Of a stretch of 64,000 nucleotides of DNA, positions 1 to 64,000 are shown piece after piece (the first letter of the stretch is position 1; every line of letters begins with the position of its first letter). The notes below the pieces were generated by a model. It was not told the origin of the DNA. It did no database searches and worked only from the letters and a program-made list of their open reading frames with translations. Made by a program: the position numbers and the translations under genes. The stretch is from Trebouxia sp. TZW2008 (taxonomy: Eukaryota > Chlorophyta > Trebouxiophyceae > Trebouxiales > Trebouxiaceae): positions 124,166-188,165 of the forward strand of contig BDIU01000216.1 of assembly GCA_002118135.1 (NCBI GenBank). Direction: 5' to 3'.

Positions 1-660
1 GAAGTCAAAAAGGAAAGCAGCACCATGCTGAACAGCACAGCAGCAGCAGCAGCATCAGCAGCAGAAGCAGCAGCATATAGCAGGCAATGGCATCTCCGCT
101 CAAGCTTTGAAGGACCAGCTGCAACATGGCATTAGCAGCATCATGATGGCATGGTTGATCTCTACACAAACTTTATAGGACCAACTGTAGCATGCTATCA
201 ACCACGGCAGAAGCAGCAGCAGCAGCAGCACATTCAATTGCATGTTTCTGCAACAATCGACGTACACTGAACGCAAGATTCACTGTGCCAGTACCTGTTG
301 AAGACATCAACGACCAGCAGCAGTAGCACAGCAGTCGGCGGTATAATTGATCAGTGTTTGCAGCGCACAATAGTAGCATGTTGTTGACAGTGCCTGTACC
401 TGTTGAAGATATTGAAGACCAACAGCAGCATGTAGGGTACCATGGAATGGTTGACAATGATCCATAATTCAAGACAGCAGCATCATGCTGAACACCACAG
501 CAGCAGCAGCAGCACAAGCAACACGCGGTTAAAGAGACACAAGCATGATCATCACAGCGCCAGTACCTCTCGCAGACATTGAAGACCAGGAGCAGCATGC
601 AGGGCACAGTGGCATGGTGAATCAACACGCACAGCGTCCAACATTAGTATCATGAAAGCA
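1..660 (-). repeat. Decayed copies of LMBRD2 exon-9 tail with CAG tracts
   Basis: The 3' end of the exon at 798-674, including its splice donor, recurs with donors near 564, 397 and 292. The copies share the text for the MLLLVFN end and the following GTAC-type donor. CAG-rich stretches at 40-75, 200-230, 310-330 and 495-525 are interspersed. Spacing between donors is about 107, 167 and 105 bp. No further real LMBRD2 exon was recognised here. Confidence 0.6.
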
Positions 661-3600
661 ACAACAAGGTTACCTGTTGAAAACGTTGAAGACCAGGAGC
701 AGCATGTAGGGCACAATGGCAATGGGCAGGTAGGACTGGAAGTCTAGCCCAATGACGGGCTGCCTCATCATCAGCTCTCCAAACTCAGCATAAAAGGCCT
801 GCAAACAACCTCAACAGCATCAAAACTGCAGCCAGTGCACGCTGGAACTCATTCATTTCCTGTTAATCTGCACAACTTCAGTCTACTGCATGTGGCAAGG
901 CCCTATCACTGGCTGCCGCAACATCAATTCTGCAAACTCAGCATGGAAGGTCTGCAAAAAACCTCGACAGCATCAGAAGCATAGCCAGTGCACTCTGAAT
1001 CTCATACGTTTCTGTAGACTGAAGTTATGCAGTCTAGCGCATTCAAGTCAGACATGTGGCAAGGCCCTGTCACTGGCTGCTGCATCTTCAATTCCCTCTG
1101 CAAACTCAGCATAGAAGGCCTGCAGTGCCAACAGGAAAGTCAAGGAGCAAAGCTTCTGGTCTTGTATAGACCATCAAGGTTTTAGCTACAGTGGAGCGTC
1201 TGCATGTTGTCCATGCAGAGTTGCAGGGCAGATTAAAAGATCAACAGGAAATGCTGAATGGACAGACCTTCTGTTCTTGTGCAAAGCCCCAACATACTTG
1301 TGGGCAGAGTCAATTTCAAAGCTACAAAGCAGAGTTGAATTTTGGCATTTGTAAACATTCATTTCTAAAGCACGCTGCAAGACAAGCAGGAAATGCTTAT
1401 AGCAGAGAGGCCTTCTTTCACCGTGTGAAGCAATAGAGACCTTATGGGCAGCGTCAAAACTGCAGCTGCGGCAAAAGAGCAGCACTTGAGCAGTTTCGCA
1501 TGTACAGCTCAGGACAATTTGCAAGGCCAACAAAGTCTAAATGGACAGCCTTTGCGCTCTTGTACAAACTAGAAAGAACTCTTGGGGGCTCAAGAGCACA
1601 GCTGCAACTTGAGAGTCTGCACTCTCCTGGCCAGTGAGTCATGAGGATGCGAATTGTCTCCCTAAATGTGCGCGCAGTACTGTTGAAGGCAGTCTCTGTG
1701 CTACAGAACCCAGCTAGGACTTGGCACAGGAGTATGCCTTTCATAATTTGTGCACACACAGACCAGGCAAACGATCAACATCCCACAACTACCTTCCCAG
1801 GATTCAACAGATTCACAAAAGCTTCAAACAAAGCTTGCAATGACAGACTATAGGGTAGAAGCATGGCTGAACACGTTTTCAAAAGCTCTGTTCATGTCTG
1901 CCATCAAGCTTCTAGTCAAAGAGACGAGGTGGCAGACTGTGGGTAAAATTGCCCCAGGTACAGGTGTGTGAGTGCTTAGGTCAGCCTTGGACGTGTGCCT
2001 GATGCAAGGGATTTGATAACAATTGCAAACACAACAGAGCTTGCTCAATAAACTTCTTGGCACATGCTGCAACTGGCAGCAGGTTGCTTTGCAACCAAAG
2101 TTGCATATCCATTTAGCAAGCTCGCATGTTGTAGTGAACAGCAATAACATTTTATAAACTGCTTGCCACCTCTGCTTGTGTAGTGCACAGTTGCGAAACA
2201 GGCATTTCCTCAAGCACCTGACTTGCTCAAACAGACATGCCAATTGTTCAGTGCTGCAAATAGAGTTGTGATCACTGTCGTCGCCTCACAGCATCACTCC
2301 TGGATCTAAGCTGCGTTATCTGTCGGTGTTTGCCCCTCAAAACTATATGGCAGTGCACCAGGTGCTTGCAGAACAATACTGATGACTGATGCTGCTTTAC
2401 AGACTCTAACAATATGAGAGACTTGTCTGAGCAACAGTGCATAAGGTGCTTTCACAACAGCACTGAGCACTATTGCTGCTTCACAAACTTTGACAGTGTG
2501 AGAACTTGGTCTAAGCAGAGATTTCTGAATTTGTCAACATGGCTTGGGGAAGCTAGCAGTGATGGTCAACCAGCTCATGTGCAAGCAAGACAACATGAAC
2601 TCACCGTATCTTGAACGTCGTAGTCACCCTCAGAGTGGCGGGAAGAGGGTGGAATGGCCACAGCTGCCATGAAGTTGAACGCCAAAGGGGCGGCAAAGCG
2701 ACACATCAACAGCCCATTTGCTAGCAGAGAGTATGGTGTCGTGTGCCTGCAGTGACACCAGACCACTTGAGACACTTAAACTTTGAACCAGACTATCTGT
2801 GCGGCTTTGCTGCTTGTGTTCACTGCTGCTGTGAGCACCTAGCAGGGTCTTGGCACCAGCAAGCATGCAGGTCATGATCCTGATGGTGATAGCTGTAATG
2901 ACTGTCAGTGACAACTTCAAACAGGCTTAGATGACAACAGTTGCCCTGAGTTGCACACAAGGTGCCCTGTTCTCAATGCATGTGAGCAAGCAGATGGCAA
3001 TGCTGCACATTGAAGACAGGGAAACAGCAAGTGGGCGGTACAGAAATGACACAGCATGCAAAAGTAGACTTGCTGTACAGCAAATGCAGATGAATTGGTG
3101 TCTTAGTGCAGGCATGATGGTGTATTCTTCACCCTAACAGGCTGATGGGCTGCACAGTGAATGCAGAACATTAGTACGCAGTGCAGATGTGATGTTGTGT
3201 GCGATTATAGTTTCTGTACAGCAGGTGCAGAAGATGAACAGGCAGTGCAGGCATAATGGTGTATACTTCACCCTGGGCATGCCAATAGCTGCACAGTGAA
3301 CGCAGAAGATTCACAGGCAGAGTAGATGACACGTGGTGTGCAGTTGCAGCTGCTGTACATCAGATGCATAAAATAAAGGGGTGAGTATACATTGACAGAG
3401 TGTTGACTGCTCACCCAGGGTCATGCAGATAGGACAGAATGGTGATTGCTTACCCAGGAACAAGCAGATAGAAGTTGAAGCGGCCCAGCCTGTAGATGGC
3501 GTAGTAAGCGCACAGGCAAGGGTAGCACAGGAACACGAAAGTCAGGAATTCTGTGGTGAACTGGTGGCTGGCTGTGCTGTGTAGGATTCTTGAGAAGACG

Positions 3601-6600
3601 GACAGGTTGGGCAGCGCACCAGAGATGGTTGCCTCTGCCAGAACAATACACAGAGAAAAGGCTGCCAGCAGCACAGCTGCAACCCTGCAACAAGTGAAAG
3701 CAAGAGTCAATGACTTGACAGCCCATAGGCAGGGATAGCTTAGAAACTCCACAGTAATGGCTGTGCTGTGCTGAGCATTATCCTGTAGAAGACTGACAGG
3801 TGAGACAGCGCACCAGAAATGGTCGCCTCTGCCAGAGCAACACATACAAAAAACACTCTCAGCAGCACAGCTGCAACCCTGCAACAGGTGGAAGCAGTAG
3901 TCAGTAATTTGTAAGCGCACAGGCAGGGATAGCTCAGGAACACCAAGGCCAGGAACTCGGTGCTAGACTGGTGGCTGGCTGTGCTGTGCAGGATCCTGTA
4001 GAAGACTGACAGGTTAGACAGCAGAACAGAAATGGTCGCCTCTGCCAGAGCAACACATACAGAAAACACAACCAGCTGCAACGCTGCAACAGGTGGAAGC
4101 AGTAGTCAGTAATTTGTAAGCGCTCAGGCAGGGATAGCTCAGGAACACCAAGGCCAGGAACTCGGTGCTGAACTGGTGGCTGGCTGTGCTGAGCACACGC
4201 GTTCACCACCTTTCATGTACATGATCACCATTGATAGATTGCCAGAGTGTAGACTTCTCTTTCCTGTTTATGTAGCAATAAATGCACTCGTGGGCACGAT
4301 AACTTACCTGAGCACAGGCCCTCCAATCAAACATTTTCACAGCCCCACATGCGCAATTACTTTTGGCAAATTGCCAAACAGTGCAGACAGTTCTGTTCTT
4401 GTCCTTTAAGGAAATGCACTCGCGTGCATAAGAGCTTACCTGAGCACGGGACCTCTGAGCACACATTTCCACCACCACTCCACGTAAGCAATCACTTTTG
4501 GCATGTCCGCATGCATGCTTGAGCTGTACGGTCCCCCTGGGTTGCTCTGGTTCCTGACGATATCTTCCAGCTCAAGATATTCAACCACAATGCCATCATA
4601 CAATGCTTTCTCCCGCTCATAATTCTCTATGCCCTGCATGTAAATGACACATGTTATACATTCTAGCACAGGTGCTGGGTGTGCACAATGCCGTCGTACA
4701 AATATTGAAGCATGTACTACAATGCTTTCTCGCGCTTGCAGTTCTGTATGCCCTGCATGATCACAGTAAAGGACAAGCATCACTGCACTGCACTGGTGCC
4801 AAAGAATGCCACCACAGAATGCTTTTTCCCACTCGCTGGTTTTTTTGCCTTGGATGATCACAGCAAATGCTGAGCTGCTTGTCACTTGTTGCACAATCTC
4901 ACAATGCACTCCTCTGCCCACTTTCAGCAAGTGGAGAGTAACCAGTCATGTTAAGTTTGTTTGCTTGGATACCAATGGAATCCTTGGCACTGCTGCCAGG
5001 CATTGCATGCTGCAGAGAAAATGCATTGCACCACAACTACATTCCTGACATCAAGCTTGCATGCAAACGATGCACAAGGTCAGATTCTGTGCAGATATAC
5101 CTTTCTGAGTCGCCTGTTCAGCACACCCAAATCCTGCCTGTCAAAGAAGTCTGTATCAACGTCGTCATCAAGTTCCACGGCAGATGGGCGAGTGTCAGCA
5201 GCATGGGAATCAGCTGTGCTCACGATCCTGTCCATGTATTTTACAAAAGGGTCATTTCGCCTAAAGGTGCCTTTGACCTTATGCACCAGCGCCATGACTT
5301 GACTCATCTCCCTGCATATATTACTCAGGGGTGTGTTGACTATGTTTACTTTTGCAAAAGGTGCCTTTCACTTTGTGCACTAGCGCTGTAACTTGATTCA
5401 TCTCCCTGCACATCTCTATGTGATCCCAATTATTATGTTGAATTGCAATGTAACTGTATATCCGCTGCTCAAGATTCTCGTGTGTGCCTGTGCCACCTGG
5501 TATGCAAGCTTACATTTGTGCAAAAGTGAAGAGTGCTCAGCATTGCTCCAACAAGTGCACAAGCACAAGGTTTGCCGCATTTGTGTGCATAAGGTGACAA
5601 GGGTTGTCCCTGCCGACATGCCTGTCAACAAGCGTTCTCGACACTGCCTCACTGAAGTGCGCGAAGCTGGCAGAGCTATGGGAAAAAGAGGTGACCAGGA
5701 CAAGCATGTATGCATGAGCTGGCAGTAACCTCTCAGCATGCAGGCCTGCCAACAAGCGCAACTGGCACTGCATCGCGAGTAAGCATGAAGCTGGCAAAAA
5801 TGTGAGAGTAACAGGCAAAAATCACAGGCACATGCGCATGAGTTGACAGCACTTCCTCCACCAACCAGCGCTGTGATGCCACCTTGAACATCAGATTGAG
5901 CATAGCAGTGGCATCAGAACAGGAGGCAATCAGAGACGCACCAATATATGAAGCTGAAAAAGCTGCTGGTGGCACAAACAACAGCTGTTGGAGGCTATAC
6001 AAAAGGCATTGAGGGCAGAGCTATTGGAGACAGAGGCAAAAGGGATGATCACGTATGCATGAGCTGACGGCACTTTCTCTACCAGCAAGTGTTGCTGATG
6101 CCGCATTGAATATGAGCATGAAAGTGGCAGGGGTATCAAACATGAGACACTCAGACAGGAACATACGCATGAGCTGATATTGCTTTATCAGCCAACAATC
6201 TTGATGCTGCTTTCTGCATGAGCATGAAAACGGCAAAGGCATCAGAACAGGAGACAGTCAGACAGTCATGTACGCGTGACACTGCTTTCTCCGTCAACAC
6301 GCATTGCTGAGGCTACTTGATGGTCAGCATGGAGTTGGAACAGGTGTCAGAGATGGTGGCCAAGGCCAAGCACGTACGCATGAGCTGACAGCGCTTTCTC
6401 TGCCTGCACGCCTGCTCTGTGGAACAGCAGCTTCCTGTAGTTCTTAGTGTCTGCAGTGCGCCACAGCTGCCTAGGAATGGCCACCAAGCCGTAACCCATC
6501 AGGAAGATGCCAGCAATCAAACCAAATGCATTGGATGCTGCTACACAGAAGCCCAGCACATTGCTGGGCGCCAAATTTTTGGTCATAAGCAGCAGCAGAA

Positions 6601-7615
6601 TGCCTGCTACTGCCAGTGCCTGCAAACAACAGACATCCAAATGTAGTGTGCTGCCAGCATCAGGTGTGAGTGCATTACAGTCATCACCAGCAGTAGAAGT
6701 GAGTCTGCAGTGACGATAACGGCATCAATCGGCTACATATGATGGTGCTGATTGACATGCTGCATGAATTGTGGGCACAGATGCTTGAAGAAAGGACCTC
6801 ATCAGATGTTGAGACCTCCACAAGCAAATATGGTGCAAGCTTCAAAAGACACGACAGGAGGTGAGAGTCTGGAATGGTAATGTGCATGCCTTGTGCAGAT
6901 CAAATGTAAATGCCATGCAGCTGGTTTTATGTTTGCTGCTGATGCTATGGGATATGGGTGCTTACTATCAACACAGCATAGAAGATCAAATTATTCCTGA
7001 CAGCTGTGTTGATGCGATCGCCAACGGTAAAATGGCCTGAGTCTGCATACTCCTGGTGAAATGGGAGGACGGTAAATTGGACTGCAAAGCCATACCAGTA
7101 GGCTACCCTCCACCATGTGACCAACAATGGCGGTGAAGTGCCCTGCAATGTGGCAGCAGCTTTTGCATAAGGAGTCAGCAAGCCAGATTGCAGCCGTGAT
7201 GTGCAATTTGAAGAGCATATTGGCAACATGCACCAGTGCTGCAGCCACAGGCAAGGACCCTTGCCGACCTGTAATGTGCTGGCAACGTCTGTGGGCACCA
7301 AAATTAGGACTGAAAGAGCTGAAAACCACGCGAGTCCCACGTCTAGCTTGACTGCCCAGCTACTTCGTCTGCTGGGCATATAGCTGAGTCCATAAACGAT
7401 CGCTGCCACTAGCAAAGGCACAGAGGCCGCATAGAAGAACCTGCAGGTGTGCAACGATCTTTACTGGCAGGTATTGATAGCGTGCACGGTTGGATCACGA
7501 CAGATATGTTCGAACTGCGTAGGTTCAGGCAGAGGCCATGACACAGCAGAGACAGTGCCGTCAAGATCTAGCATCTATCAGGCGTTTGCTCGCCGGATGG
7601 CGCCACTCACCACAT
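1..7615 (-). CDS. LMBRD2: LMBR1 domain-containing protein 2 homolog (partial, 3' end outside window)
   Basis: Multi-pass membrane protein of the LMBR1 family, plant LMBD2 type; the cellular role is poorly known. Exons on the minus strand: 7615-7611, 7440-7269, 7142-6966, 6619-6378, 5311-5101, 4633-4440, 3684-3454, 2746-2605 and 798-674; all phases join. The first coding exon holds only ATG-TG and gives the start MWFFYAASVPL, like plant MWVFY starts. Family landmarks in order: SVLILVPTDV, GHFTVGDR, FGLIAGIFLMGYGL, RNDPFVKYMD, LELEDIVRN, VLAEATI, LLMCRFAAP and DFQSYLPIAIVPYMLLLVFN. The last exon ends with phase 2 at position 674, so the C-terminal exons lie beyond base 1. Introns are stuffed with decayed copies of the gene's own exon edges. 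Identification is by remembered family motifs; exon boundaries are inferred from splice signals. Confidence 0.88.
799..1125 (-). repeat. Copies of LMBRD2 exon-9 start and acceptor
   Basis: The 3' splice site and first bases of exon 9 (start 798) recur with exon starts near 951 and 1119, spaced about 154 and 167 bp. The shared text reads CAAACTCAGCATRRAAGG followed by CTGCA on the plus strand. The copies lie upstream of the real exon in transcription order and lead into no open coding sequence. Confidence 0.65.
3737..4190 (-). repeat. Tandem pseudo-copies of LMBRD2 exon 7
   Basis: Exon 7 (3684-3454) is followed upstream in the intron by partial copies whose exon starts are at 3878 and 4083, plus a shorter piece at about 4124-4190. 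They preserve the reading CVALAEATIS, NLSVFYRILHSTASHQ and LSYPCLCAYK, then break off before the real exon's end YAIYRLGRFNF. They lack the real 5' splice site, so they look like unspliced pseudo-exons. Spacing is 194 and 205 bp. Confidence 0.8.
4290..4860 (-). repeat. Copies of both edges of LMBRD2 exon 6
   Basis: The start of exon 6 (4633) recurs upstream near 4752 and 4852; the plus-strand text is CAATGCTTTCTC...GCCCTGCATG. The end of exon 6 (4440), with donor GTAAG, recurs downstream near 4316 as AACTTACCTGAGCACAGG. Start copies lie only upstream and end copies only downstream of the working exon. Confidence 0.7.
5360..5420 (-). repeat. Copy of LMBRD2 exon-5 start
   Basis: The exon 5 start at 5311, with its TATATGCAG acceptor, recurs near 5408 as GATTCATCTCCCTGCACATC together with about 45 bp of exon sequence (the AAGGTGCCTTT region). 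It is a single extra copy upstream in transcription order, offset about 97 bp. Confidence 0.65.
5700..6360 (-). repeat. Decayed copies of LMBRD2 exon-4 tail with donor
   Basis: The end of exon 4 at 6378 reads ACGTACGCATGAGCTGACAG on the plus strand, holding the GTACGT donor. Related blocks occur near 6270, 6160, 6050, 5830 and 5705, each keeping CATGAGYTGAC or similar plus a CTTTCTC-like run. They lie downstream of the exon in transcription order. Spacing is irregular, about 100-220 bp. Confidence 0.65.
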
Positions 7616-49600: not shown

Positions 49601-52175
49601 ATGCCAAATTGCCATGCATATACAGACTTGATCAAACAGGGACAAAGGGTTCCACTAAATTGTCTCACCTGAATCAACCCAGTTGGGCTGCTGCATCACA
49701 CACATGGTCGACTTTTGGAGCCAGACATGTACAATGGCTGTGTTACATCATATTGCTGTGTGTATATAGAGGTGATCCAGCATGTATAGGCACAGGTAGG
49801 GGTCCCATCTACGGTCCCACCTTTGAGGACGAGTTGGATTCACGTCTGACTCATTCAGGCATGGGAACAATGAGCATGACCAATCTACAAGCCCTTCTTT
49901 GTGCAAACACTGCTCTGTGTATAGGGAGGTGATCCAACAGGAACAGGCACAGGCGGGGAGTCAATCCACGGCCCCACCTTCAAAGACGAGGTGGATTCAA
50001 GGCCGATTGATTCAGGCAGGGGACTTGCACACAAGCGACTCACAGGCGAGGCAACAGCTGTACCATAGTATGTGACTGAAGAGCTGCTGTGTGTGCGGAG
50101 GTGATCCAGCAAAAACAGGCACAGGCAGGGAGTCTATGTATGGCCCAACCTTCCAAGACAATATGGATTCACGGCTGACTCATTCGGGCAGGGGGTCCCA
50201 TGAGCACAGCCTATTGCAGCTCGTACTGAAGAGTTATCAGCAGTAGAAGCCATGCCGTGTGATGTCGTGACTATAGTCTCATTGGTGTCTGACTTTTTGT
50301 ACAGGGAGGTGATCCAACAGGAACAGGCACAGGTGGGGAGTCCATCTACGGTCCCACATTCAAAGATGAGTTGGATTCACGGCTGACTCACTCAGGCAGG
50401 GGCATCATGAGCATGGCCAACTCTGGCCCTGCTACCAACGGTTCCCAATTCTTCATTCTGTACAAGTCGGCGCGGCATCTTGACTACAAGCACACAGTGT
50501 TTGGCAAAGTTGTTGGAGGTGAGACAATTGACATACAGTTCAAGCATGTAGTTTTCAAACCTTTGGCCTGGCATCTGGTCCAAGTACAAGATGTTGGACA
50601 AAGGTGTTGCAAGCGCAAATCTCTGTCTTGTACAAGTCGGCCAGGCATCTCAACTAAAAGCACACGGTGTCTGGCAAAGTTGTGCAAAGGTCAGTGGCCC
50701 ATGTTTTTTTTCTCTCCCGAAAGGCTTTTTTTCCTCAAGGCCTGTTCTTCTCAACCCTTTTTTTTTCTCTTCGAGAATTCTCCTCAAGGCCTTTTCTCTT
50801 CTTTTTTTTTTAAGTTACTCTTTTGGCCTAGCCTCATAACTTCAAGCATACGTTGTTTGGCAAGCTTGTGTGAGGCAAAGTGCCTGCTTCCAACAATCTC
50901 CAGTTCTCTTTTGGCCTAGCCTCATGACTTCAAGCATATGTTGTTTGGCAAGCTTGTGTGAGGCAAAGTGCCTGCTTCCAGCGATCCCCAGTTCTCTATC
51001 TTCTACAAGTCAGTGCGGCATCCTGACTACAAGCACACAGTGTTTGGCAAAGTTGATGGAGGTAGGTTCAATGCATGTTTCGAACATGCAGGATGTGGTA
51101 CAATGATAGTTTATGATTTTGCCTGGTTATCACAGGCCCAGTATGTTTGGCAAAGTTGTGGAAGGTAAGATGCCTGCCATCAACAGCTCGCAACTCCTCC
51201 TGTACAGGTTGGCCTCTCCAAAGACTCTGTAAGACCAAGACTAGTCAGCAGTTGTCAACTGCTCGTTGCCTTGAGCTGGCAATTGCGATTGGCATTGTTG
51301 ACTGGCTACAGCGTGCCCAATGCTTCCTTTTCTTCTTTCTCGCATCGTTTTCAAGATTTTCCGTTTTGTCACGCAGGCTTTGACGTGTTGACAGCTATGG
51401 AACGTGTGCCAGTTGATGGCGATGACAGACCAGAGCAGGAAATCAAAATCACAGGCGCAAGCGTGTTTGTGAACCCCTATAAGGAACTGGAAGAAGAAGA
51501 GCGCAAAAAGGCTGAAGCAGAGCGAAAACAGGCAAGCAGGCCATGCTTCGTGTGCACATGTACTCCATCAAGCTGTTAATGCTGAATGTATACATGCACC
51601 ATGTTGCTAGACTTTCCTGAAATGCAGAATGTTTTGTATCAATTCTGTTGATATGTGAAGATGTAGTGCAATTCCTGATACTGCAGCAGTAGGTGCTGTT
51701 TTGACATGAGAAGCGTGTGCCACATTAGACTGCACCAGCAGTCACGCTTAAACTCTGCTTGCTGCACAACATCATGAAAGTTGGTATATTGCGTTTGGGT
51801 CTGTCTCTGAAGCTAGTCCCTGACTATGCTGGATGATCTGTTGCCACCAGTGGGCAAATGATGCCATACAACAGCAGCAGCCTCGTTAAGCGGCATGCTG
51901 CTGAAGGCCTGAGTTTTGCGTGTCACTTGCAGGCAGAAAAGGAAGCAGGACCGCCAGATATTGAGGAAGAGGGCGTTGGAAACTGGTTTAGCAATCCTGC
52001 TGGTACCAGCAGTACTGCAGCAAATGGGTCTGGTGTCGGCAAATACCTCAGTAGCGCGCCAAAGAAGCCCGCTGGTCAAGCTGCCGCGGATACTGCGCTC
52101 GATGTACAGCCCGCTCCTGTTGTCAAAAAGCAGAAAGTCAAACAGGCCGGTTATGGTAATTTTGATGCATGGTGA
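43605..52175 (+). CDS. PPIL2: U-box cyclophilin-type peptidyl-prolyl isomerase (PPIL2/CYP65 type)
   Basis: Nuclear protein joining a U-box (E3 ubiquitin ligase fold) to a cyclophilin domain; relatives associate with the spliceosome. Twelve exons: 43605-43633, 43815-43935, 44636-44803, 45695-45865, 46405-46566, 47055-47161, 47671-47768, 48110-48256, 49130-49380, 50305-50518, 51377-51531 and 51933-52175; 1866 nt, 621 aa. Start [10 protein letters not shown], then YLTATEW and the U-box ([32 protein letters not shown]). Then [19 protein letters not shown]. The cyclophilin part has [70 protein letters not shown]. The end NFDAW is conserved. The active-site Arg (FHR) and QFF are present, though Trp of the drug loop is replaced (LDYKHT). 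Two introns use GC donors (after 45865 and 51531). Confidence 0.94.
44340..44640 (+). repeat. Copies of PPIL2 exon-3 start
   Basis: The start of exon 3 (44636; TGTACAGCTGATGGCACTGT) recurs near 44347, 44424 and 44531 with variants of GCTGATGGCACTG followed by ATGACATCAC or ATGACACC. Spacing is about 77, 107 and 105 bp. Acceptors are partly decayed. Confidence 0.8.
45203..45858 (+). repeat. Four 164-bp tandem copies of PPIL2 exon 4 with acceptor
   Basis: Copies start at 45203, 45367, 45531 and 45695, an exact period of 164 bp, with only a few substitutions. Each holds an acceptor (GCATGCAG), 128 nt of exon 4 and, in the first three, CTTCCAG followed by GCAATGCG and about 35 bp of spacer. Only the fourth continues into the full exon. 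Splicing any of copies 1-3 into the message at GC sites would shift the frame and meet a stop. Confidence 0.95.
46235..46345 (+). repeat. Copy of PPIL2 exon-5 start
   Basis: About 105 bp including acceptor TGTGCAG and the start GGGGCGAAACTTGTG repeat exon 5 from 46239, 166 bp upstream of the working exon at 46405. Short tail copies of the same exon, with GTGAG donors, follow downstream near 46735-46750 and 46920-46955. Confidence 0.85.
47525..47605 (+). repeat. Copy of PPIL2 exon-7 start
   Basis: GTTGCAGCCCCCAGAGCCTG with about 60 more bp repeats exon 7, starting at 47532, 139 bp upstream of the working exon at 47671. A short tail copy (CAGCAGCACCATG) lies near 47860. Confidence 0.85.
48828..49200 (+). 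repeat. Three 151-bp tandem copies of PPIL2 exon-9 start
   Basis: Starts at 48828, 48979 and 49130, period 151 bp, nearly identical. Each holds an AG acceptor, about 118 bp of exon sequence ([13 protein letters not shown] reading) and a 33-bp tail (TTGATCTGACAGCATCTGTA). Only the third continues into the full exon; the first two run into a TGA right after the duplicated part. Confidence 0.95.
49765..51170 (+). repeat. Copies on both sides of PPIL2 exon 10
   Basis: Start copies of exon 10 (GGAGGTGATCC...) begin near 49768, 49925 and 50096 before the working exon at 50305. Tail copies end near 50689, 50872, 50964, 51061 and 51164 after the working end at 50518; several keep a GT donor (GATGGAG-GTAGG, GTGGAAG-GTAAG). 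Spacings are 92-209 bp, mostly 150-180. Copies are decayed to varying degrees, with frame breaks. Confidence 0.9.
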
Positions 52176-52301
52176 AAGTGAAATCTGGTTTCAGATGAAT
52201 GACGACATGCATGCAATTCAGCATGCACTCGTCGTTGCGCTGAACGCGCTGTAGCATCACCATTGCCAGACGAGACGTGCCGCTGGGTGGAAAGCGTATA
52301 G

Positions 52302-55300
52302 ATGGCCAACGCGCTGCATGCATTGGTGATTGGAGGGTCGATCGGCGGGTTGTCGGCTGCCCATGCCCTCCTTAGAGCCGGTTGCCGAGTCACTGTGCTG
52401 GAGCGGGCGCCTCAGGTTTCCGGCAACTCGCTAGGAGCGGTACGATCTTCCTTTACAAAGTCATGTTTCTGTCGCACGCCCATCAAATGGAAGCCTGGCC
52501 AGCTGCCATGCCATACATGCTTCACCTGTGCTCTTGATACAAGCTAAGAGCATTCAGCAATAATGCGCATGCAGCAAGTCTGTCAAGTCTGTCAACAAAC
52601 GGACACTTGGTATATGAACTTGGCCCTTTCAGTGATATGCATGCTGAGGAGCTGATACACAATAGTATCGTTGCATTAGATGCTGGGATGCATACATGCT
52701 GCGTGCTGAGCCAGCTTGCCTGTGTATTGTCGAGGGGTCAAATACAGGTGTCAAAGAAGATTGGTTTCGCCGTAGTCTGACCAGGAAGAGCCACTGCCCC
52801 CCCGCCTGGAACATCCATCACAACCTTGTTGGCTGACTGAGGATGTGAAACCGCTCCTCCTCCTCCACCTCCACAAATCTGCCGGGACTTGACATTGCCA
52901 TCACTGTCCCTGTATGCAGGGCTTTTGTATCTTGGGGCAAAGGAGTGTCTGCAGACATCTGACCAACGCTGAAGTCAATGCATGTAAACAAAATCGCAGC
53001 GATTGTTACAAAGTCCATGGCATCAGTGGCTGCTGCTATTGCTGAAGCCGCAGCGTCTGTGATGTCAAAAGCTGCTGACCGCAAGAGCTGAAAGCAGGCA
53101 GCAAGCACTCCAGATTAATTGTTTGACTACTGAAAAAAGGCAAACCACTTGCAGGGCTTGGGCCTTGACACTCCAGTCTGCGATCTCCTTCGTTCATGGA
53201 CATCGCAACAGAAGTTCGACGAGAACAGCTTGCCTCTGCCCATTGAAGAGAACAGGCTCCTTGAAGACCGTCAAGCCAGGACGTTGTTTCATGATGATGC
53301 GTACAAACACCGAAGGTGCAGTTGCATTACACATAGCGCCTACCTTACATATTGCATAGAGCAGCCGGGCCTTTCAATCAAAGTTTCACCCTTACAAGCA
53401 GTTTGTGTCATCTGCGTCTGGTTGTATTTGGTGTTTGCATGATCAAACCTGTTTAACAAACAATCACTGTGCAAAAGTTGGACTGCCTGCACCGCAACAT
53501 GTTCTACGCATGGCCAAGCAACAGGTTCAAGCACTTGCTTCCTGAGACGACCCCATCCTATACTCTGTGATCCTTCTTATTGTCTCTGCACCAGCTTGAG
53601 CATGATGGACATGAGCCTCAATTGTGCCTCACAGTCACTCAGGCATTGAGGCAGCAAAGTGATCACCTGAGAGTCACTGCCCGTGCATTACCGCTTATGA
53701 CCAACAGCATCAGCACAGCAGACAGCACAGCGCAGACAGAATGGTCTCAGCTGCCGACAGCCTGGTACTTACTCACTTGGCTCACGAGCTGAGGCGTGGC
53801 TTGCCAGCACGTCACAGGACATCAACAGGCAGCAAACTGATCTGAGATCTGTTGTTTCTGTGCAGTACTCACTGGAGCAACATTCACCACACACTGCTTC
53901 ATGCGCTGCCCGATGAAAGCATCATGCACTTCCACCACACAGTCACAGACTTCACCCAGCAGGAGGGCAGCAGCAAGGTTCAAGTCACAGCTGAAGTGGG
54001 GGAGCAAAAGCGAAAGCAAACTTTTGAGGGGGATCTGCTGATAGCTGCTGACGGCTCGATGTCAATGGTGCGCTCCAAATTCAGACCAAAAGACCAGCGC
54101 AGGTGTGCTGCGCTTGCATTTGTGTTGTGCTTGCATTTGTGTTGTGCTTGCATGTGCTTCATTCAATCTTGAAGTGAATGCACAGTTGGGCTGTCATTCC
54201 AGCTTTGTTGTCTGTGCCTCGTAGCTCCGAAAAACTTCCCCTGGTACATTCTGATACATTTCGGAACGCATATGATGTCATTTTTTCACCCTCAAATCAG
54301 CAAGCCACACCTTCAGAGGTCTGTCTCAGCATGATCATGTCTACCTCAGTTAGAATCCATTCAAACCCCAAGACCAACGCAGGCGAGACCTGCTTGCACC
54401 TGTGCCGTTTCAGCTTAAACTGGAGGGACAATCAGATTGTCAGAGCAGCTTTGCCATTCCTGCCTTCTGGACGTGACAAGTCTATCAAGGACTTGCCTTT
54501 CTACACGGATACAGGTTACTAACAAGCTCAACCACCCATTCTGCATTTGAGCAATTTATGAGCTTCAGAGGGTTTTCCTGGCTCGTCAATTAACAGAACA
54601 TGTCAGAGATGGCAAAGGGAGGAGCTAATTCAGTGGAGACAGCTTGAAGTGCAATGTATGAATGCTCATGCCTGGAGACGCAGGCATGAGTATAAGAAGG
54701 ACATTTGGACAGTGCATGGGAGCTGGTGCAGGTCATCCCTAATCCTCAATTAACACCATGACATGCCACAAATGCACCAGCTATGACGCCGTATCCAGGC
54801 ATGTTGCACTGCAGGTCAAGCTTGTTTAAGATCTGCCTGTTTCTCGAATCTCACCTAGTACATGAAAAAACGCTCAAAATGTGCAGGTACTCAGGCTATA
54901 TTGCATGGAGGGGGGTCATGAGAGCAGGTGAAAACCCTCAAGTGGCAGCAGCCGTCAGAAAGGCATATTCCGGCATGGGCAACACCCTATACTTTGACAT
55001 AGCCAAAGGAACTCACTCAGTGCTGTATGAGCTGCCTGAAGAGCGACTCAACTGGTTGTGGTGAGCGCCCCTCAACCCTCACCCCCTGAACCCTTTTTGC
55101 GCACCCCCCTTCGCCTCACCCGTGTCTTCCCCCTCCTGCATTGGCTGACAATGAGTGACGCAACACCCTGTACTTTGACTTTGCCAAGGAGACGCGTTCA
55201 GTGCTGTATGAATTGCCTGAGGAGCGACTCAACTGGTTGTGGTGAGCGGCCCCCCTCCCCCTTTGCGCACCCCCTTTTGCCTCATTCCGTATCTTCCCCC

Positions 55301-58300
55301 TCCTGCATTGGCTGACAATGAGTGGTGCAACATTGACATGGCCAAGGAGACCCATTCAGTGCTGTATGAAGCCTGAGGAGCGACTCAACTGGTCGTGGTG
55401 AGCGCGCCCCCCCCCCCCCCCCCCCNNCCCCCCCCCCCCCCACTTCTTTGCGCAGCCCCCTTTGCCTCACCCCGTATCTTCCCCCTCCCGCATTGGCTGA
55501 CAATGAGTGACGCAACACCCTGTACTTTGACATTGCCAAGGGGACACACTCAGTGCTATACAAGCTTTCTGAGGAGCAAATCAACTGGCTGTGGCAAGCA
55601 GCTTTGCTATCCCTGAGACCCACCCCTTGCATGCCCGACCCTGAGACCCCCCTGCAAGGCAAGAATGGCCCACAGCAACCGACGCATTAACTTAGTCTCA
55701 CTGCATCAAAGACATGTACTCAGTGCTGTATGATTCATCAGTCTCAAGTGGCTTTGCTCGCTCCATGTCTTGCAGACTTAGCCTCTATGAGGGGTCACAA
55801 GGAATATATTGCGCAGAGCAGCTACACCAGTGCAGATTTCTCTAAGTCATCACAGTGATACCACTCTCTGACAGTGAGTCACACCAGAGACTGCTATCAC
55901 TTTGATGACAAGAAGCCGTCAGAACTGGTGCATGTTCTCTGGCATTGAAAGTGGTGCATCAATGTAATCAAATATGTGAACGCAATGCTGCACAATATCA
56001 GCGGTTGACATTGAGAGATAAGCATTGCAAGCAATAGCCATTCTTTGATACAGTATGCAGTACTTGATGGCTTGCAGCCATCAATATGAACTTATTTCTA
56101 GGTATGTAAAGCAGCCAGGGCCAGACTTTCCAAGCTCGTCCGTCACTGTGAAGGCTATAAATGACAAGATACAGCATTGATGCTCACTTTCATTGATCAC
56201 AGGCAGTGAAAGTTGCAATCTGAGCATGCAATGCTGAACCATGAGCAATACTCAACCATGAGATGTGATTCTTTTCAGGCTTCCACTGATGCAATGCAAT
56301 TGTGTTTAGGTATGTGAATCAGCCAGAGCCGGAGCTTCGAGGCTCCTCAGTCACGCTGAGAAGCAACAGATGACAGGATGCAGCATTTGTGCACACCATA
56401 TCTGATTGCAGCCTTGAATCGATGTGATCTTGTTTCCAGGTATGTGAATCAGCCAGAGCCAGAGCTTCAAGGCTCCTCAGTCACCCTCAAAGCTACAGAT
56501 GACAGGATACAGCAGATGCACCAGGAAGCTGACCAAATTTGGACTCCAGAACTGGCTCAACTGATGAAGGTAGGTAGTCATGGTCAACTCACCATAAGTC
56601 GTTGTACTTTTGGCACAACTTGACTGTAGATGAAAGCTAGTACAAGTTCAGTATAGCAGATGCACCAGGAAGCTGACCAAATTCGGACTCCAGAACTGGC
56701 ACAGTTGATGCAGATAGGCAATGTCCAAACTCATAATGGATTCCTGGGGTTTTGGTAGTGTTTGGTGTATTCTGTTGCGCAGCATGTGGCAGATGGAATG
56801 CAGCACATGCACCAGGAAGCTGAACAGATTTGGACTCCAGAAATGGCCCAGCTGATGAAGGTAAATTGTCATGGTGAAGTATATTATGGTTTCTGAGTTT
56901 CTGGCAGGCATTAGCTGTTGTCTTCTATCTTCCGTGTGGTAGCTGCGATACAGCAGATGCGCCACAAAGCTGTACAGATTTGGACTCCAGAACTGTCCAA
57001 CTGTGAAGTTGGCTTTTCGTAACACTCAATGTGCAGTCTGCAAGCATTGCAGTGGGTAGATGTATCAGGTCTGGCCTGAATTGGGTAATGCAAGACGCTG
57101 CTGCCACGGTATCACGTGTGATGCGCAAGTGTGTCAGCGTGTCAGCCACTGACATGGAAAGTATGATGTTATTCCTGTTTGCAGTGGAAACGTACATGCA
57201 TGTGTTTGCCACCTTGGGTAGATGTGATCTTGTGCGCTGTCCAACAGAAGGAAAATGCTGAAGACGCTCTTTCTGCCGCAGGCAACAGAGTCACCGTTTA
57301 TCAATGCCATCTTTGATAGAGAGCCGCTGGATCAGTTTGTGTGGGGAAGGGTGGTGTTGCTAGGCGAAGCTGCTCATCCAACCACCCCTCATGGCCTCAG
57401 AAGGTAATCATGTTGGACACAGTTCAGGAAAACATTCCAGTCATGCTGTTGTTATGCACGGCAATGCAGCAGCCAGCAAGAAGGTTACTCACGCAATCGA
57501 CCCTCATGGCCTCAGAAGGCAAGATGAGAGTCTCTTTTCATCTGCTCTACACACAGCTGCAAAGCTGTTTTTGTGTCTATTTGTGCATTGCCCTATTACC
57601 ATCTTTTTTCGCTTGGGTCTATTTGTGCATTACCCTATGACCATCTTTGACTTAGATCACTTTACTGACTTGCGTCATCGCAATATTTTTGATGCAACGT
57701 GCAATATTGGGTAGCAAGTGTGGTTTCTGCTAGCCATTAGCTTTTTAGTCAAGGGTGCAGCTGTCAGTGCTGATTCAAGTGCTGCTGGTGTTTTGCAGTA
57801 CCAATATGGCAATAGCAGATGTTGGCAAACCAGGAGACGCCATCAGCAAGCACCAAGGCAACCCTGATGCAGCGTTGCAAATCTGTTACTCTGGTCATTG
57901 GCATATGTGTTGACATGTAGATTCAGCACTGTTGAAACTTTTGCTTGGCTGTTGCAGTACCAATATGGCCATAGCAGATGCTGGCAAGCTAGGAGATGCC
58001 ATCAGCAAGCATACAGGTGACCTTGACGGAGCGCTGCAAGACTACCAACAAGAGAGGATACCACAAACCACCAGCGAGGTTTGTATTCTGCCGCTCTGTG
58101 ATGTATCACTTGATGAACCATCTGTGCGTCGTATCGACAGGTGACAACATTCTTCATGCATCTCACAGCATCTTGTTACATTGGGTTTTGGCTTGCTAAT
58201 GGCAGATCAAGTTCATAGACAGGCCTGTAAATCAGCAGGGACGGCTCTTGCCATGTAGTGGTAGCTCTCTGCTTCCAGACAACGGGACAGTCTATGCGTT

Positions 58301-58672: not shown

Positions 58673-59232
58673 CACAAATGAAATCAACAGAGCTTGCACA
58701 GGGCTGCACTCTTCACATGAAGAGCTAAGTTGCGGCTTTCAAGTGCCATTGACGACAATTCTAGCGAGCTGACTTATCGGCTTGTCAAGGCAACAGCTTG
58801 TGAAGTAAAAATATTTACAGTTTTGCTTTGCTCAGGGATTAGCCATGCTGACTGCATGCTGCAGTCAATACTCTGTGTTACTCCTGACATATTGCTTTCA
58901 GGGCTGCTGCTGTCTGTGAACAGAACTTGTGCGACAGCCCTGCCTTGTTGAGGACAGGTAGTGACAGCTGTGACTTTTGAGACCCTGATGCGCATACCTG
59001 CGCATGACTCTGCGAAATTTGAGCAGGTGACTTACAGATCTGTAAAGCGTGATCAAGATTGACCCTCCCAGATTGACCTTCAGAACACAGCGCCCCAGCC
59101 CCGACACGAACACCCCTTGCTGGCACGCTACAAATTCGTCAAGCCAGAACAAGCGATGCTTGGGAGAGAGAGAGCCTTAACATTGTCTTCAGCAGCACGC
59201 CAGTTCAAGTAAGTGAGTTCAAGTGCCCTGAA

Positions 59233-59303
59233 TGTCGCTTGGCGTCGCTCTGAAACCATCCAGAGTGGCATTTAGATGCCCCAAGCCTGACAAAGACCCC
59301 TTC
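59233..59303 (-). repeat. Dispersed ~70-bp repeat, copy 1
   Basis: About 90% identical to 60854-60925, both in the same orientation, 1.6 kb apart. On the minus strand it can be read VFVRLGASKCHSGWFQSDA, the same as the other copy except Leu for His after Arg. It has no in-frame ATG. Confidence 0.85.
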
Positions 59304-60350: not shown

Positions 60351-60387
60351 GTCAAACTAAGTCACGAAATTCGTGACTTAGTTTGAC
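60351..60387. repeat. 37-bp palindrome
   Basis: Two 18-bp arms (GTCAAACTAAGTCACGAA and its exact reverse complement) around a single central A. It could form a perfect hairpin or cruciform. It lies in intergenic DNA and no flanking target-site duplication was noticed. Confidence 0.95.
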
Positions 60388-60849
60388 CTTTTCGTTCACT
60401 GAAGATGCACAAGTGTGTCTGGTCAGGTGTGTAGGTCAGTGCAACCCAGCAATGCTGTTCCGTTTCGAGCTGAAGCTTTGTCTATCAGATACAGGGTGGT
60501 TGTATGCAATTGGAGCAAAAGTCAATCTCGCATTTGATACACCTCACAGGCCCTACACAGATTTTAAATCCTTTGTTACACTGCATTGTTGGGCTCGTTA
60601 AATGTTCAGTATGATTTTCAGCGGGAAACAATGCTGCAGCTGCTGTGAAAGCGCTGCTTTTCTCGGGGCACAGTGCGAATTTTGACTGTCTACCGTATTG
60701 TCTTGGCTGGTCAAGACTTTGCCAGACCACACGCCTTTGACGCACATAGCGCATCCCGCCCCTAGCCCTGCAATTTTGTGTTCGCGCGTTGTCGGTGTCA
60801 TGAGCAGTGCACCCAGTGAGAGAACACCCGCGTTGGCCGGCCAATAGAT

Positions 60850-60927
60850 CAACTGTCGCTTGGCATCGCTCTGAAACCAGCCAGAATGGCATTTAGATGC
60901 CCCGTGCCTGACAAAGACCCGTTGCAT
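60850..60927 (-). pseudogene. Fragment like the start of a SixA-type histidine phosphatase
   Basis: From the ATG at 60927 the minus strand reads MQRVFVRHGASKCHSGWFQ, then SDAKRQL. This resembles the first strand and catalytic RHG of phosphohistidine phosphatases, which begin M-V-x-RHG and continue to SDxxRxL. No convincing continuation of the domain was found on either side of a possible donor, so it may be a gene fragment or the first exon of a gene I failed to assemble. It lies in a CpG-rich stretch (60700-61050) that also serves the plus-strand gene at 61047. Confidence 0.35.
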
Positions 60928-61046
60928 CACAGGTCAACCTTGACAACGCCCACGCAGAAGTTGCGTCCAATGCCTGACCTCAACATGCATTCACCACACC
61001 CTAGAATGTGCGGTCACATCGGTGTTCATTAGAGTCAAGTGGAAAG

Positions 61047-64000
61047 ATGCCCACCTGTATGAAGGCACCAACTCACAAGGCAGCTTTCTTCGTTGCCGGA
61101 GCTACCGCAACCGTGGGTGGTTGTCTCTTTTTCATCGGAAAGAAGTTGCTGGAGGTGCGATATGCCCTCAACATCAGTCAAAGCCTTGAAATTGCTTAAT
61201 AGGCCAAACTCTTCTCAACACTCATCACGAAGTTTCTGTCTGCAGGGAGCTCAGCGACCAGAAGCTTCTGACAAAGCCCCCTTCTCACACCCTCTGTTCA
61301 TCAACAACGAGGATGGGTACAGCGACAGCAGCAGTAGCATCCAAGACGGCGAAAATTTGCCAGCTGAGCCAGGAAACCAGAACCAAGGTGAGACAGCCTC
61401 TCACTGGGCGCAATAGCGTTGTAAGTGACGGCTGACGAGCATTTTCAACAACTGCTGCTTTTTGTGAGGATACGTTTTTATCCGTCGTGTATGATAGACT
61501 TTCTGGCATGCGTTGCCCAGCATCACTGTTTGGCTTGCAGGCACCCCAAAGCTGCAGCAGGGGAAAGTAACCCTGGGCAGATGCCTGGTGACCCAATGCA
61601 TGTACCACATGCCCTTTGTCAAAGTTCTGGCGGTGTTCAAGGCTCAAGAGACAGCCAAGGCATCCAGTGCTATTCAAGAGGCACAGCGCCAAGCCTTGAA
61701 GACAGCTGTTGCCGCAAACACTGCTTCTTGGGTCTCCCGTCATGCGCAAGGTATGCTGTTGCAGAGCTGCTGAGCTGGTGCTGTTCTGTCTTTCAGACAA
61801 CACTCTGGCTGCGTGACAACTTTGGCATGATTGCAATGGTCCATGCTCCTGCATATGTTATTGTTAGTTTGTGGCCAGGGACACATTTCCATACGTCAGG
61901 ACATGTAGTCTTGCCTACTTGTAGCACAAGATGTTCCACCAACAATAAGCAATTACTCATGTTGCAGGCGGGCTGAGGCTTCAGCAGAGTCAAGCCATCT
62001 TGAGCAGGCAGGCCTTGCTCTACCTGGCATATGGGAGGACATTGCCTCTGCATATACCCCAGCACGCTGTGCTCACCGCAAATGCAGTCCAGGAAGGTGC
62101 ACAGCCAAAAGCGGCTGGAGCAGAAGTTGCTGAGACCATGGCAGCCTGCCAGGTGCATCCATCACAAGGTGGGTAACGGGCAGACTAACTCTATACTTGT
62201 CTGCCGCAACACAGCGCTTCCAGTGATTTGGGTTGTTTGCACATGCTGTCGCGGCTTCAAACTTGTAAGCCAGCCAAGGCATGGACCTTGCAACAAGCCC
62301 CGTAGCTGTTTAGTTCAGCTGAATAGTATATGGCAAGTGGGCCAAGCTGAAGAGGTACGGTGCTTGATGTAAGGTACATGCAGAGCTAACTTGTTTGGTA
62401 GTGTGTGCAAATCGGCTCAAGCTGAAAAGTTGTACAGCATGCTGGGATGTCCATACAGAGCTGACTTTTGCTGGCAAAACACAAGCGTCGGTCAAACGGA
62501 AGCTGATTAGCTGTGTGGCTCGCTTAGTGCAGGAAATGCACGGCTGCAGCATGTGCAAGTGACACTAGGCAGGCTAGCAACCTTGTACTGGGCGTTTGCA
62601 AAGGCTAGGAGTAAGCATACTTATCATGCCGACATTGCGTGACTTGTTTTGACAAGTCCATGCAGACTTGATTGCTGCTGACAGTGTGACAGACCTGGCC
62701 ACACTGTAAGGTTGTGTGGCTTGATTGGTGCAGGGAACTCACAGCTGCAGAAGGTGCAACTGGCACTGGGCATTTGCAAAGGCTAGGCGTAAGCATACCG
62801 ACCAACCTGTTAGCTTCTGACAGTGTACAGGACCTGGCCACACTGCTGTGGCATTTGCTTGCTGCAGGAAATGCACAACTGCAGAAGGTGCAAGTGACTC
62901 CAGGCAGCATAGCTATGCTGCACTGGGCGTTTGCAAAGGCTGGGACTAAGCATACTGACCAAGCTGAAAACTGCGTGACTTGTCTGAAGCCCATGCAGAC
63001 TTGGTTGCTGCTGACAGCGTGAAAGGCCTGGCCACGCTGTAAACTTGTGAGGCTTGGTTGGTGCAGGGAACGTACGGCTGCAGAAGGTGCAAGTGACTCT
63101 AGGCAGCATAGCTATGCTGCACTGGGCATTCCAGAAGGCTCGGACTGAATACATGGGCCAGCAAGCAGCTCAGGCATTCAGTTTGAGTGCTGAGACTGAA
63201 GAGCCAGCAATTCACGAGAAGGAGATTGGCTCAACCACTGCTGCTGTCAAGGGTAGCCACTCAAGAGATGAGAGTCAAGGTAGGTCTTGTTTTTCCTTTA
63301 CATGTGTCCTTCTGCTTGCTGTTGGTGCAGCAGTCAGATGTTTGCTGTGGTGCTTGCCACTGGGGATGTACATTGTGAGCATGAGCTGTGCGCACACACA
63401 CGCGCACACACACACGCACACACGCACACACACACACGCACGCACGCACGCGCACACGCACACGCACACGCACACAGTGTGATCAGCGTTGGGATCTATT
63501 GCACAGCGAATATGAAAGCTGGTCTGCTTGTTTCGCTTGTTCTGCTGCCCATCATGGGAGCTTGATCAGCTTCCTCTGTGTGCAGAAGTGACAGAAATGG
63601 AGGCTCCCCAGGCAAATGCTGAGACTGCCAAGCTGTTTTTCAGTGACCTTGTCAGCTTGAAGGGAGCCGTTTCAGACCTCAAGCAGGAGCTCAAGGTATC
63701 TGTTTTATTACTTTTTTGTTACTGTGTTTCATACAGTAACCTTGTGTCATCATAGGAGTCTCTTGAGTGCACCATCAACACTGTAGAGTGCATCACTAGC
63801 TTTGCAGGTTGCATTAACATGGCTGTGACAAACATTGACAGTTCTGTTTTTGGATTATTGGTATCCACATCCTTCTGACAGTCTTAAAGTAAGCTCTGCA
63901 CATTGCAAGCAACTCTGCTGCAAGCAAAAGACAAAACCTTCACATTTTCATGCTGACAGCTGTGTTGATTATGGGCCAGAGCTTGCTAACAAGAAGAGCT
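61047..64000 (+). CDS. Unrecognised membrane-anchored protein (partial, runs off right edge)
   Basis: I do not recognise the family. Exons seen: 61047-61154, 61246-61387, 61541-61750, 61968-62168, 63067-63279 and 63586-63695, with consistent phases (984 nt so far); the last donor at 63696 leads out of the window's clear part. The N-terminus has one hydrophobic helix (AAFFVAGATATVGGCLFFIG). A Ser-rich linker follows (YSDSSSSIQDGEN), then a longer amphipathic and partly hydrophobic portion (MYHMPFVKVLAVFKAQE, LSRQALLYLAYGRTLPLHI), and then acidic and helical sequence (FFSDLVSLKGAVSDLKQELK), probably coiled coil. The ATG at 61047 is the first in frame. Intron 4 contains three copies of the exon 5 start. 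Confidence 0.65.
62528..62960 (+). repeat. Three copies of exon-5 start of the last gene
   Basis: The start of the exon at 63067 (GGAACGTACGGCTGCAGAAG) recurs at 62533, 62734 and 62868, each behind a TGCAG acceptor. Spacings are 201, 134 and 199 bp. The third copy is the closest, covering about 80 bp including ATAGCTATGCTGCACTGGGC. All are upstream of the working exon. Confidence 0.9.
63391..63476. repeat. CA/CG-type microsatellite
   Basis: About 86 bp of alternating purine-pyrimidine sequence, (CA)n with interspersed CG steps, in an intron of the last gene. The sequence is of Z-DNA-forming type. Open frames through it are artefacts. Confidence 0.95.

Follow-up and report, generated by a model that had tools for sequence, protein, structure and literature searches.

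Local tandem duplications and extra copies of exon edges in the introns of Trebouxia

Introns in a stretch of Trebouxia nuclear DNA (64,000 nucleotides, called the window below) contain pieces that resemble the edges of neighbouring exons. Do these pieces come from a process aimed at exon-intron junctions, as a first-pass annotation of the window proposed, or from local duplications that pay the junctions little or no regard?

Exon edges are copied on a predictable side

Three genes, transportin, PPIL2 and LMBRD2, make up the exon set for the edge tests (Table 1); the 5-base first exon and the 3′ part of LMBRD2 were left out. For the PQ-loop, LEA_2 and monooxygenase genes and the last gene of the window only repeat families are seen, their exons not being fixed. 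A tRNA scan and an Rfam scan gave no hits, and no relatives of the transportin were found in viral_contigs or genome_contigs. Edge copies were scored up to 1 kb from each edge against a null of random stretches from the same genome (without the plastid stretch, L006), with a z of at least 5 for counts of sides and at least 4 for the list of copies, whose extents come from banded alignment.

Table 1. Genes, exons and copies of exon edges in the window. Upstream and downstream are relative to the direction of the gene.
Feature	Position	Strand	Splice dinucleotide	Lag	z	Basis or remark
Transportin gene, 16 exons	26453..34985	+				spliced alignment; translation equals P0001 across all 905 residues
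Exon 7 (29134-29360) start + intron end, upstream copy	28873..29088	+	AG kept	104	6.0	
Exon 7 end + donor, downstream copy	29461..29582	+	GT kept	162	19.8	
Exon 8 (29887-30189) end part, downstream copy	30249..30329	+		170	15.2	
Exon 11 (32118-32273) start, partial upstream copy	31925..31989	+		207	11.3	
Exon 13 (33244-33424) start + acceptor, upstream copy	33060..33168	+	AG kept	167	22.7	
Exon 13 end, downstream copy	33497..33632	+	GT to GC	166	23.3	
Exon 15 (34330-34495) start, upstream copy	34116..34205	+	AG to AC	151	7.0	
PPIL2 gene, 12 exons	43605..52172	+				spliced alignment; Trebouxia C0004 ortholog P0121
Exon 3 (44636-44803) start + intron end, upstream copies	44327..44574	+	AG to AA	105	19.2	family D4
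Exon 4 (45695-45865) start + intron end, four-copy array	45177..45824	+				unit 164 bp
Exon 5 (46405-46566) start + acceptor, upstream copy	46230..46336	+	AG kept	165	25.2	
Exon 5 end + donor, downstream copy	46665..46806	+	GT kept	181	14.3	
Exon 7 (47671-47768) start + acceptor, upstream copy	47495..47610	+	AG kept	140	21.5	
Exon 7 and its end, downstream copy	47767..47881	+	GT to GC	112	7.5	
Exon 9 (49130-49380) start + intron end, three-copy array	48792..49244	+				unit 151 bp
Exon 10 (50305-50518) start, three older upstream copies	49756..50212	+	AG kept (best copy, 49913-50022)		28.0 (best copy)	family D2
Exon 10 end + donor, downstream copy	50971..51063	+	GT kept	543	31.9	family D15
LMBRD2 gene, 8 exons used	674..7440	-				spliced alignment; P0241 + P0242 (C0004 and C0009 orthologs)
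LMBRD2 exons	7269-7440, 6966-7142, 6378-6619, 5101-5311, 4440-4633, 3454-3684, 2605-2746, 674-798	-				
Exon 5101-5311 start + acceptor, gene-upstream copy	5342..5415	-	AG kept	94	19.9	
Exon 4440-4633 end + donor, gene-downstream copy	4192..4368	-	GT kept	135	13.6	
Exon 3454-3684 start + intron end, gene-upstream array copies	3758..4149	-	AG kept	194	24.5	
Exon 674-798 start + intron end, gene-upstream copy	900..1124	-	AG kept	153	24.3	
Exon 674-798 end + donor, gene-downstream copy	467..614	-	GT kept	108	15.9	
Monooxygenase region, 100-base stretch present three times, resembles an exon end	54979..55611	+				family D9, reading frames; exons not fixed

The three genes carry 28 edge copies, which involve 19 of the 36 exons (18 exons at the higher threshold) and sit within existing introns; that more than 20 exons are affected in the whole window is plausible. 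The copies are mostly of partial exons, with identities of 0.81 in their exon parts and 0.76 in their intron parts. Exon starts have a copy upstream in 15 of 34 cases and downstream in none, and exon ends have a copy downstream in 11 of 34 and upstream in one (z at least 5; three genes), the sole exception being PPIL2 exon 7, with copies on either side. The rule follows from the geometry of a duplication across a junction. In the PPIL2 exon 4 and exon 9 arrays the last copy is part of the exon itself. The first-pass annotation was right that edges of neighbouring exons recur as additional copies within introns, with starts copied upstream and ends downstream, and an origin by tandem duplication of junction-spanning segments is supported. 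Outside these genes, 134 kinase matches (114 of 663 candidates having been scored) include two overlapping neighbour pairs that are clear by eye, on C73 and C130, and in both pairs it is the upstream member, by gene direction, that is the partial copy; by the same reading the remaining overlaps are too short or ambiguous to call.

The same annotation had splice sites included in the copies, and this is mostly so: the dinucleotide is covered by 23 of the 28 and intact in 18 of these. The alignment of the transportin exon 8 copy ends 30 bases short of the donor, and in the exon 11 copy the acceptor lies outside the aligned part. Intact dinucleotides would be expected had selection retained the copies for use in alternative splicing, whether as sites or as exons, and the XPG_I exon region, with three successive matches at C57:178778-179254, could be read in the same way; this triplet may be an exception to the mostly partial nature of the three-gene copies, as a case of whole-exon tandem copies. 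However, about 14 of 23 would be intact by chance at 79% identity, so that 18 is no clear excess, the copies in the three genes are for the most part incomplete exons, and the 164-bp unit of PPIL2 is not divisible by 3. Retention for splicing is therefore very unlikely as the general explanation.

Local direct duplications fill the sampled genome

Unselected nuclear stretches, 25 in number and 238 kb in total, have 17.7% of their bases in local direct duplications (17.7-21.4% as the share of sampled bases overall), at a density of about 79 events per 100 kb and with at least one event in every stretch, which bears out the genome-wide spread that had been suggested from the window. These event counts leave out L006, L001 (part of the window) and low-complexity segments, and the scan was made without stretches L028-L032. 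The excerpts of two Trebouxia genome papers put repeats at 9-16% in total, and the words "tandem" and "exon" are absent from those excerpts.

The duplications are direct and local: near blastn pairs number 183 direct vs. 4 inverted (L006 excluded), and segments number 732 at near lags vs. 3 at far lags. Among tandem-like events, 141 are shorter than 220 bp and 7 longer, and 39 of the 61 well-preserved events fall at 120-180 bp (28 of 41 outside the window). Copies lie head to tail, with a spacer of at most 5 bp, in 49 of 76 well-preserved events, so that direct, local, head-to-tail copies, the marks of local tandem duplication, are all found. Spacers of more than 30 bp separate the copies in 23 of the 76, and these count against a plain tandem duplication, which needs a later change to give them. 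Helical phasing of the lags was absent at all 15 periods examined (mean vector 0.009-0.101; about 0.075 is expected by chance).

Introners supply intron material of about nucleosome length and form dispersed families. The Trebouxia copies are like algal introners in length, so that an insertion of introner-like or transposable elements into introns deserves consideration, but they are local only: they match neighbouring sequence and not one another across genes, no more than 2 direct and 3 inverted pairs turned up when unrelated stretches were compared with each other (24 comparisons), and the 164-bp PPIL2 unit, among the best candidates of a whole-genome search, was found only in its own array. 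The dispersal expected of such elements is thus missing from these comparisons and that search, and we reject this origin as extremely improbable.

The duplications are of graded age with few young ones, identity reaching at least 90% in 16 of 251 primary events. Since young copies are so few, the first-pass description of the process as continuing is unproven; their scarcity may reflect a slowdown, or young arrays may have been collapsed in assembly. The window has two N runs, 15876-16007 and 55426-55427, and each falls within an array or next to one, which shows that arrays trouble the assembly and lends something to the idea that the copies themselves were misassembled from uncertain reads. 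Misassembly would yield near-identical copies, however, whereas 235 of the 251 events are less than 90% identical, with differences across exon and intron parts, and assembly trouble would more likely hide young arrays; we regard an artefact as highly unlikely.

The three genes of the exon set are a rich sample for edge copies. In PP2A and three beta-tubulins only 3 of 54 edges have copies, and in that set two exons are doubtful (identical residues number 2 of 10 in the last exon of L029 and 12 of 30 in the first of L032), one of the three positive edges falling on the doubtful last exon of L029; the start of L029 exon 3 scored z 4.0 on the side opposite to the rule, under the threshold of 5. 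Edge copies are therefore not equally dense in all genes, and their rarity in these four housekeeping genes indicates that the process, or the survival of its products, is uneven. The number of duplicated bases rises with intron length (rho 0.85), and in the three genes duplications are present in none of the 5 introns under 200 bp and in 23 of the 28 longer ones.

Junctions and intron interiors are duplicated at similar rates

Local copies were detected for 20 of 52 junctions and for 48 of 130 intron-interior tiles (Fisher p 0.87), rates that are equal within error, and the proposal that the process is aimed at existing junctions is not supported. Aiming could come, for example, from splicing- or transcription-linked breaks or from nucleosomes placed on exons. 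In a simulation of blind duplication with selection, the junction/intron detection ratio was 0.54-0.72 (7 runs), and when duplication was aimed at junctions by a factor of three or four it was 0.67-1.25 (4 runs); early runs had too few events and count in these ranges only. The observed ratio of 1.04 lies above the blind range and inside the aimed one, so a mild excess of duplications at junctions is possible. The simulation is crude, though, with guessed rates, exon copies stay recognisable for longer, and stretches throughout the genome sample are filled with duplications. With the junction rate matching that of intron interiors, we consider aiming unlikely.

A model of duplication and selection

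We favour, at a probability of about three in four, pervasive small local tandem duplications that are filtered by selection and have little or no regard to junctions. Duplications would arise locally, their units spanning some 20-220 bp and, in the best-preserved cases, mostly 120-180 bp, and selection would purge those that damage coding sequence. One that covers an acceptor would leave a spare intron end and exon start upstream, and one that covers a donor a spare exon end and donor downstream; only the copy still attached to the rest of the exon would complete the reading frame. The spare copies, probably nearly neutral, would then drift apart in an intron that is now longer. For the cause at the DNA level we tentatively favour fill-in of staggered breaks with end-joining, or misprocessed lagging-strand pieces. 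One nucleosome or one Okazaki fragment may set the reach of a duplication, a suggestion we make tentatively. Loss of an XPG-family nuclease is unsupported as the cause, since XPG_I matches are present.

A stronger form of this reading, possible but in our judgment somewhat doubtful, is that a mutator, present or recent, acts genome-wide, producing tandem duplications of nucleosome or Okazaki size (120-180 bp, very few above 220 bp), of which about one per 1.3 kb can still be recognised, and serving as the main engine of intron growth. Exon edges and their splice sites would then have been copied incidentally, because they were in the way.

Comparison with known systems

A close parallel is the potato RdRp gene, in which, according to the excerpted account in PMC4974935, an intron was gained through tandem duplication across an intron-exon boundary. 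There, too, the duplicated segment ran from the end of an intron into the exon that follows, with the acceptor and other splicing signals. The potato case as excerpted is, however, a single event, in which a cryptic donor helped a new intron to form, whereas Trebouxia has many events of graded age in existing introns. The model of intron gain by segmental (internal) duplication (Rogers 1989; Hellsten 2011; both as cited in the PMC4974935 excerpt), with Drosophila cases in the excerpted PMC2891723, likewise has tandem duplication supply intron sequence and splice sites. Duplicated segments that carry splice signals, as this model expects, are found here (the dinucleotide is covered in 23 of 28 copies and kept in 18). 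As outlined in these excerpts, the model turns an AGGT-bearing exon segment into an intron, whereas in Trebouxia junction-crossing or intronic segments lengthen introns.

Fill-in of staggered breaks by Pol alpha-primase gives small tandem duplications, and short ones (<100 bp) are the commonest class in the human genome (PMC8355091, in excerpt); rice insertions from the repair of staggered breaks are recounted in the excerpted part of a review (PMC7407515). The Trebouxia duplications resemble such repair products, as excerpted, in being short, local and tandem, some of them only partly so, but their well-preserved units peak at 120-180 bp, in contrast to the human class below 100 bp of the PMC8355091 excerpt.

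How introns lengthen without transposons is poorly understood. Here a single genome holds many duplications that differ in age and in which functioning splice sites lie next to spare ones, and this allows the tolerance of splicing for duplicated junctions, and the speed at which spare sites decay, to be measured. The size class, with its upper limit near 220 bp, hints at a single repair or replication step.

Gene models

Exons were fixed with a purpose-written spliced protein-to-DNA aligner, which gave 16 exons for transportin (protein query P0001), 12 for PPIL2 (query P0121, from Trebouxia C0004) and 8 for LMBRD2 (queries P0241 and P0242). The window occupies C208:124166-188165 of the assembly. 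The transportin translation equals P0001 at all 905 residues, and its best named relatives are in Trebouxia sp. C0009, Trebouxia sp. C0005 and Myrmecia bisecta, which identifies the organism as a Trebouxia, a green alga of lichens. P0001 carries the source label "lgn", with a longest contig of 3906 bases; because this is shorter than the 8.5-kb gene, we infer that P0001 derives from a transcript. The donors modeled in transportin and PPIL2 are GC in 3 of 26 introns and GT in the others.

Features of the window and of other contigs of the same assembly (C29, C57, C73, C130)
Feature	Position	Strand	Remarks
LMBRD2	window 674-7440	-	
Transportin	window 26453-34985	+	
PPIL2	window 43605-52172	+	
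GC-donor introns, transportin/PPIL2	window 32273-32274, 45865-45866, 51531-51532	+	modeled donors
LMBRD2 intron	window 5312-6377	-	about 1.07 kb, after exon 6378-6619; decayed copies noted over 6291-5342
N runs	window 15876-16007, 55426-55427		
Simple repeats near window ends	window 63391-63476, 33-75		CA-rich and CAG
XPG_I exon region, L028	C57:178300-179700		hits to family positions 1-47, 1-44, 1-48
Overlapping kinase-domain hits	C73:131817-132422, C130:70887-71249		in pairs
Sampled stretch L006	C29:20001-26635		dense in direct and inverted repeats

Copies of exon edges

For each edge, 20 intron bases joined to at most 60 exon bases served as the query; the top-scoring local alignment was kept from the 1 kb to either side, and z scores were calculated against randomly drawn stretches of this genome. 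With a cutoff of z ≥ 5, the three named genes have exon starts copied upstream in 15/34 cases vs 0/34 downstream, and exon ends downstream in 11/34 vs 1/34 upstream, so the first-pass annotation was right that start copies lie upstream, and end copies downstream, of the coding exon. The sole wrong-side case is PPIL2 exon 7 (98 bases), which is copied both upstream and downstream. The rule follows inevitably whenever a tandem duplication crosses a junction, as the copy still attached to the remaining exon is the coding copy.

At z ≥ 4, 19 of 36 exons carry edge copies, 28 altogether; the lowest-scoring, that of the transportin exon 5 end, sits in the following exon, where repeats within the protein could account for the match. 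Of the 28 copies, 24 have lags of 39-207 bp; the remaining four have 379, 537, 543 and 666. The splice dinucleotide is retained in 18 of the 23 copies that span it (chance expectation about 14 at 79% identity), and identity is 0.81 in exon portions and 0.76 in intron portions, as expected if selection holds the coding copy.

We also note that local duplications cover 70% of the LMBRD2 intron listed in the table, where reading frames resemble several decayed copies of the preceding exon's end. In the C73 and C130 kinase pairs an incomplete copy, interrupted by a stop in one of them, lies upstream of the fuller exon, matching the side rule.

Junctions and intron interiors

The further proposal that duplication is aimed at existing junctions is not supported: in transportin and PPIL2, local copies occur at 11/26 starts and 9/26 ends, a rate matched by intron tiles (48/130; 31 upstream, 34 downstream, some both). 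Exon interiors have them in 2/8 cases and all window tiles in 95/397. Inverted copies are found at 1/26 start edges, 0/26 end edges, 0/8 exon interiors, 2/130 intron tiles and 6/397 window tiles. In a forward simulation, crude and with guessed rates, duplications fell blindly, changes to the coding sequence were selected against and exons decayed more slowly; the junction/intron ratios were 0.54-0.72 (seven runs), and three- or fourfold aiming gave 0.67-1.25 (four runs); the measured ratio is 1.04. Strong aiming is not needed to explain the data, and there may be a mild surplus at junctions.

Uneven distribution and intron length

The three named genes, which were singled out by the starting observation, are a rich sample: duplications cover 32.7% of their intron bases and 31.5% of their exon bases, compared with 14.9% of the rest of the window. 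In PP2A and three beta-tubulins, which were located through homology and have many short introns, only 2/27 starts (upstream) and 1/27 ends (downstream) reach z ≥ 5, one of these three edges resting on a doubtful exon. Within the named genes duplications are present in none of five introns below 200 bp and in 23 of 28 longer ones, and the number of duplicated bases rises with intron length (Spearman 0.85, p 5e-10); this is a correlation without proof of cause, because longer introns give more room.

Whole exons are possibly copied as well. Three successive hits in the XPG_I region on C57, with start spacings of 155 and 172 bp, may be tandem duplicates of an entire exon of a repair nuclease; several further partial copies lie upstream, spaced 148-172 bp.

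Density, orientation and unit size in the genome

Sample stretches were picked by contig number and position before inspection. When 30 pieces (288.8 kb, six of them making up the window) were each compared with themselves by blastn, local direct repeats cover 20.6% of bases and local inverted repeats 2.0%. A single stretch, L006, which reads as plastid DNA from an rpl16-like reading frame judged by eye, contributes 31 of the 35 inverted pairs; it was removed from the counts, and the other pieces together have 183 direct pairs and 4 inverted ones.

A lag scan without gaps, run on 26 sequences (302 kb) and likewise excluding L006, found 732 segments at lags of 20-1500 and 3 at far lags, with 4.7 false segments expected in the near-lag space. 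The 732 merge to 579 and are then reduced to 251 primary events, occupying 18.5% of bases. Outside the window there are 188 events in 238 kb, or 78.9 per 100 kb (bootstrap 60-99), covering 17.7% of bases, and every stretch has at least one.

Exact 14-mer direct runs peak at a lag of 120-210 bp; inverted runs number 0-1 per 15-bp bin at 45-405 bp and 1-4 below. Tandem-like events have lags below 220 bp in 141 cases and greater in 7, and 39 of the 61 well-preserved ones lie at 120-180 bp. Gapped alignment of 76 well-preserved events shows the copies to be head to tail in 49 and separated by 6-30 bp in 4 and by a longer spacer in 23. In whole-genome searches (68.5 Mb, 527 contigs; best candidates only scored), the 164-bp PPIL2 unit had four matches, all inside its own array, and a 901-base query containing the PPIL2 exon 9 array matched only its own locus.

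Age of the duplications

By identity, primary events number 5 at ≥95%, 11 at 90-95, 26 at 85-90, 40 at 80-85, 57 at 75-80, 47 at 70-75 and 44 at 65-70. A constant rate should yield young events at least as numerous as old ones; either the process has slowed or the assembly has collapsed young arrays. The window's two N runs each fall within or next to a tandem array, which favors some collapse, and arrays in this assembly may be collapsed or broken.

Precedents and possible mechanism

A tandem duplication spanning an intron-exon boundary is described for one potato gene (PMC4974935), and duplicated coding segments for Drosophila (PMC2891723; a further Drosophila duplication paper is PMC6380325). 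Term searches of the available text of two Trebouxia genome papers found "intron" once and neither "tandem" nor "exon" in one (PMC12712428), and none of the three in the other (PMC11523091); "tandem repeat" is absent from that of an Asterochloris genome paper (PMC6652019). Titles and abstract openings in the open-licence literature yielded no genome of comparable density, which falls short of proving absence from print because subscription journals lay mostly outside this scope.

The duplications are small, local, direct, mostly tandem and limited in size. They could reflect a repair or replication step that reaches one nucleosome or one Okazaki fragment. Misprocessed lagging-strand pieces would be one option; another would be staggered breaks that are filled in and then joined (PMC8355091, PMC7407515).
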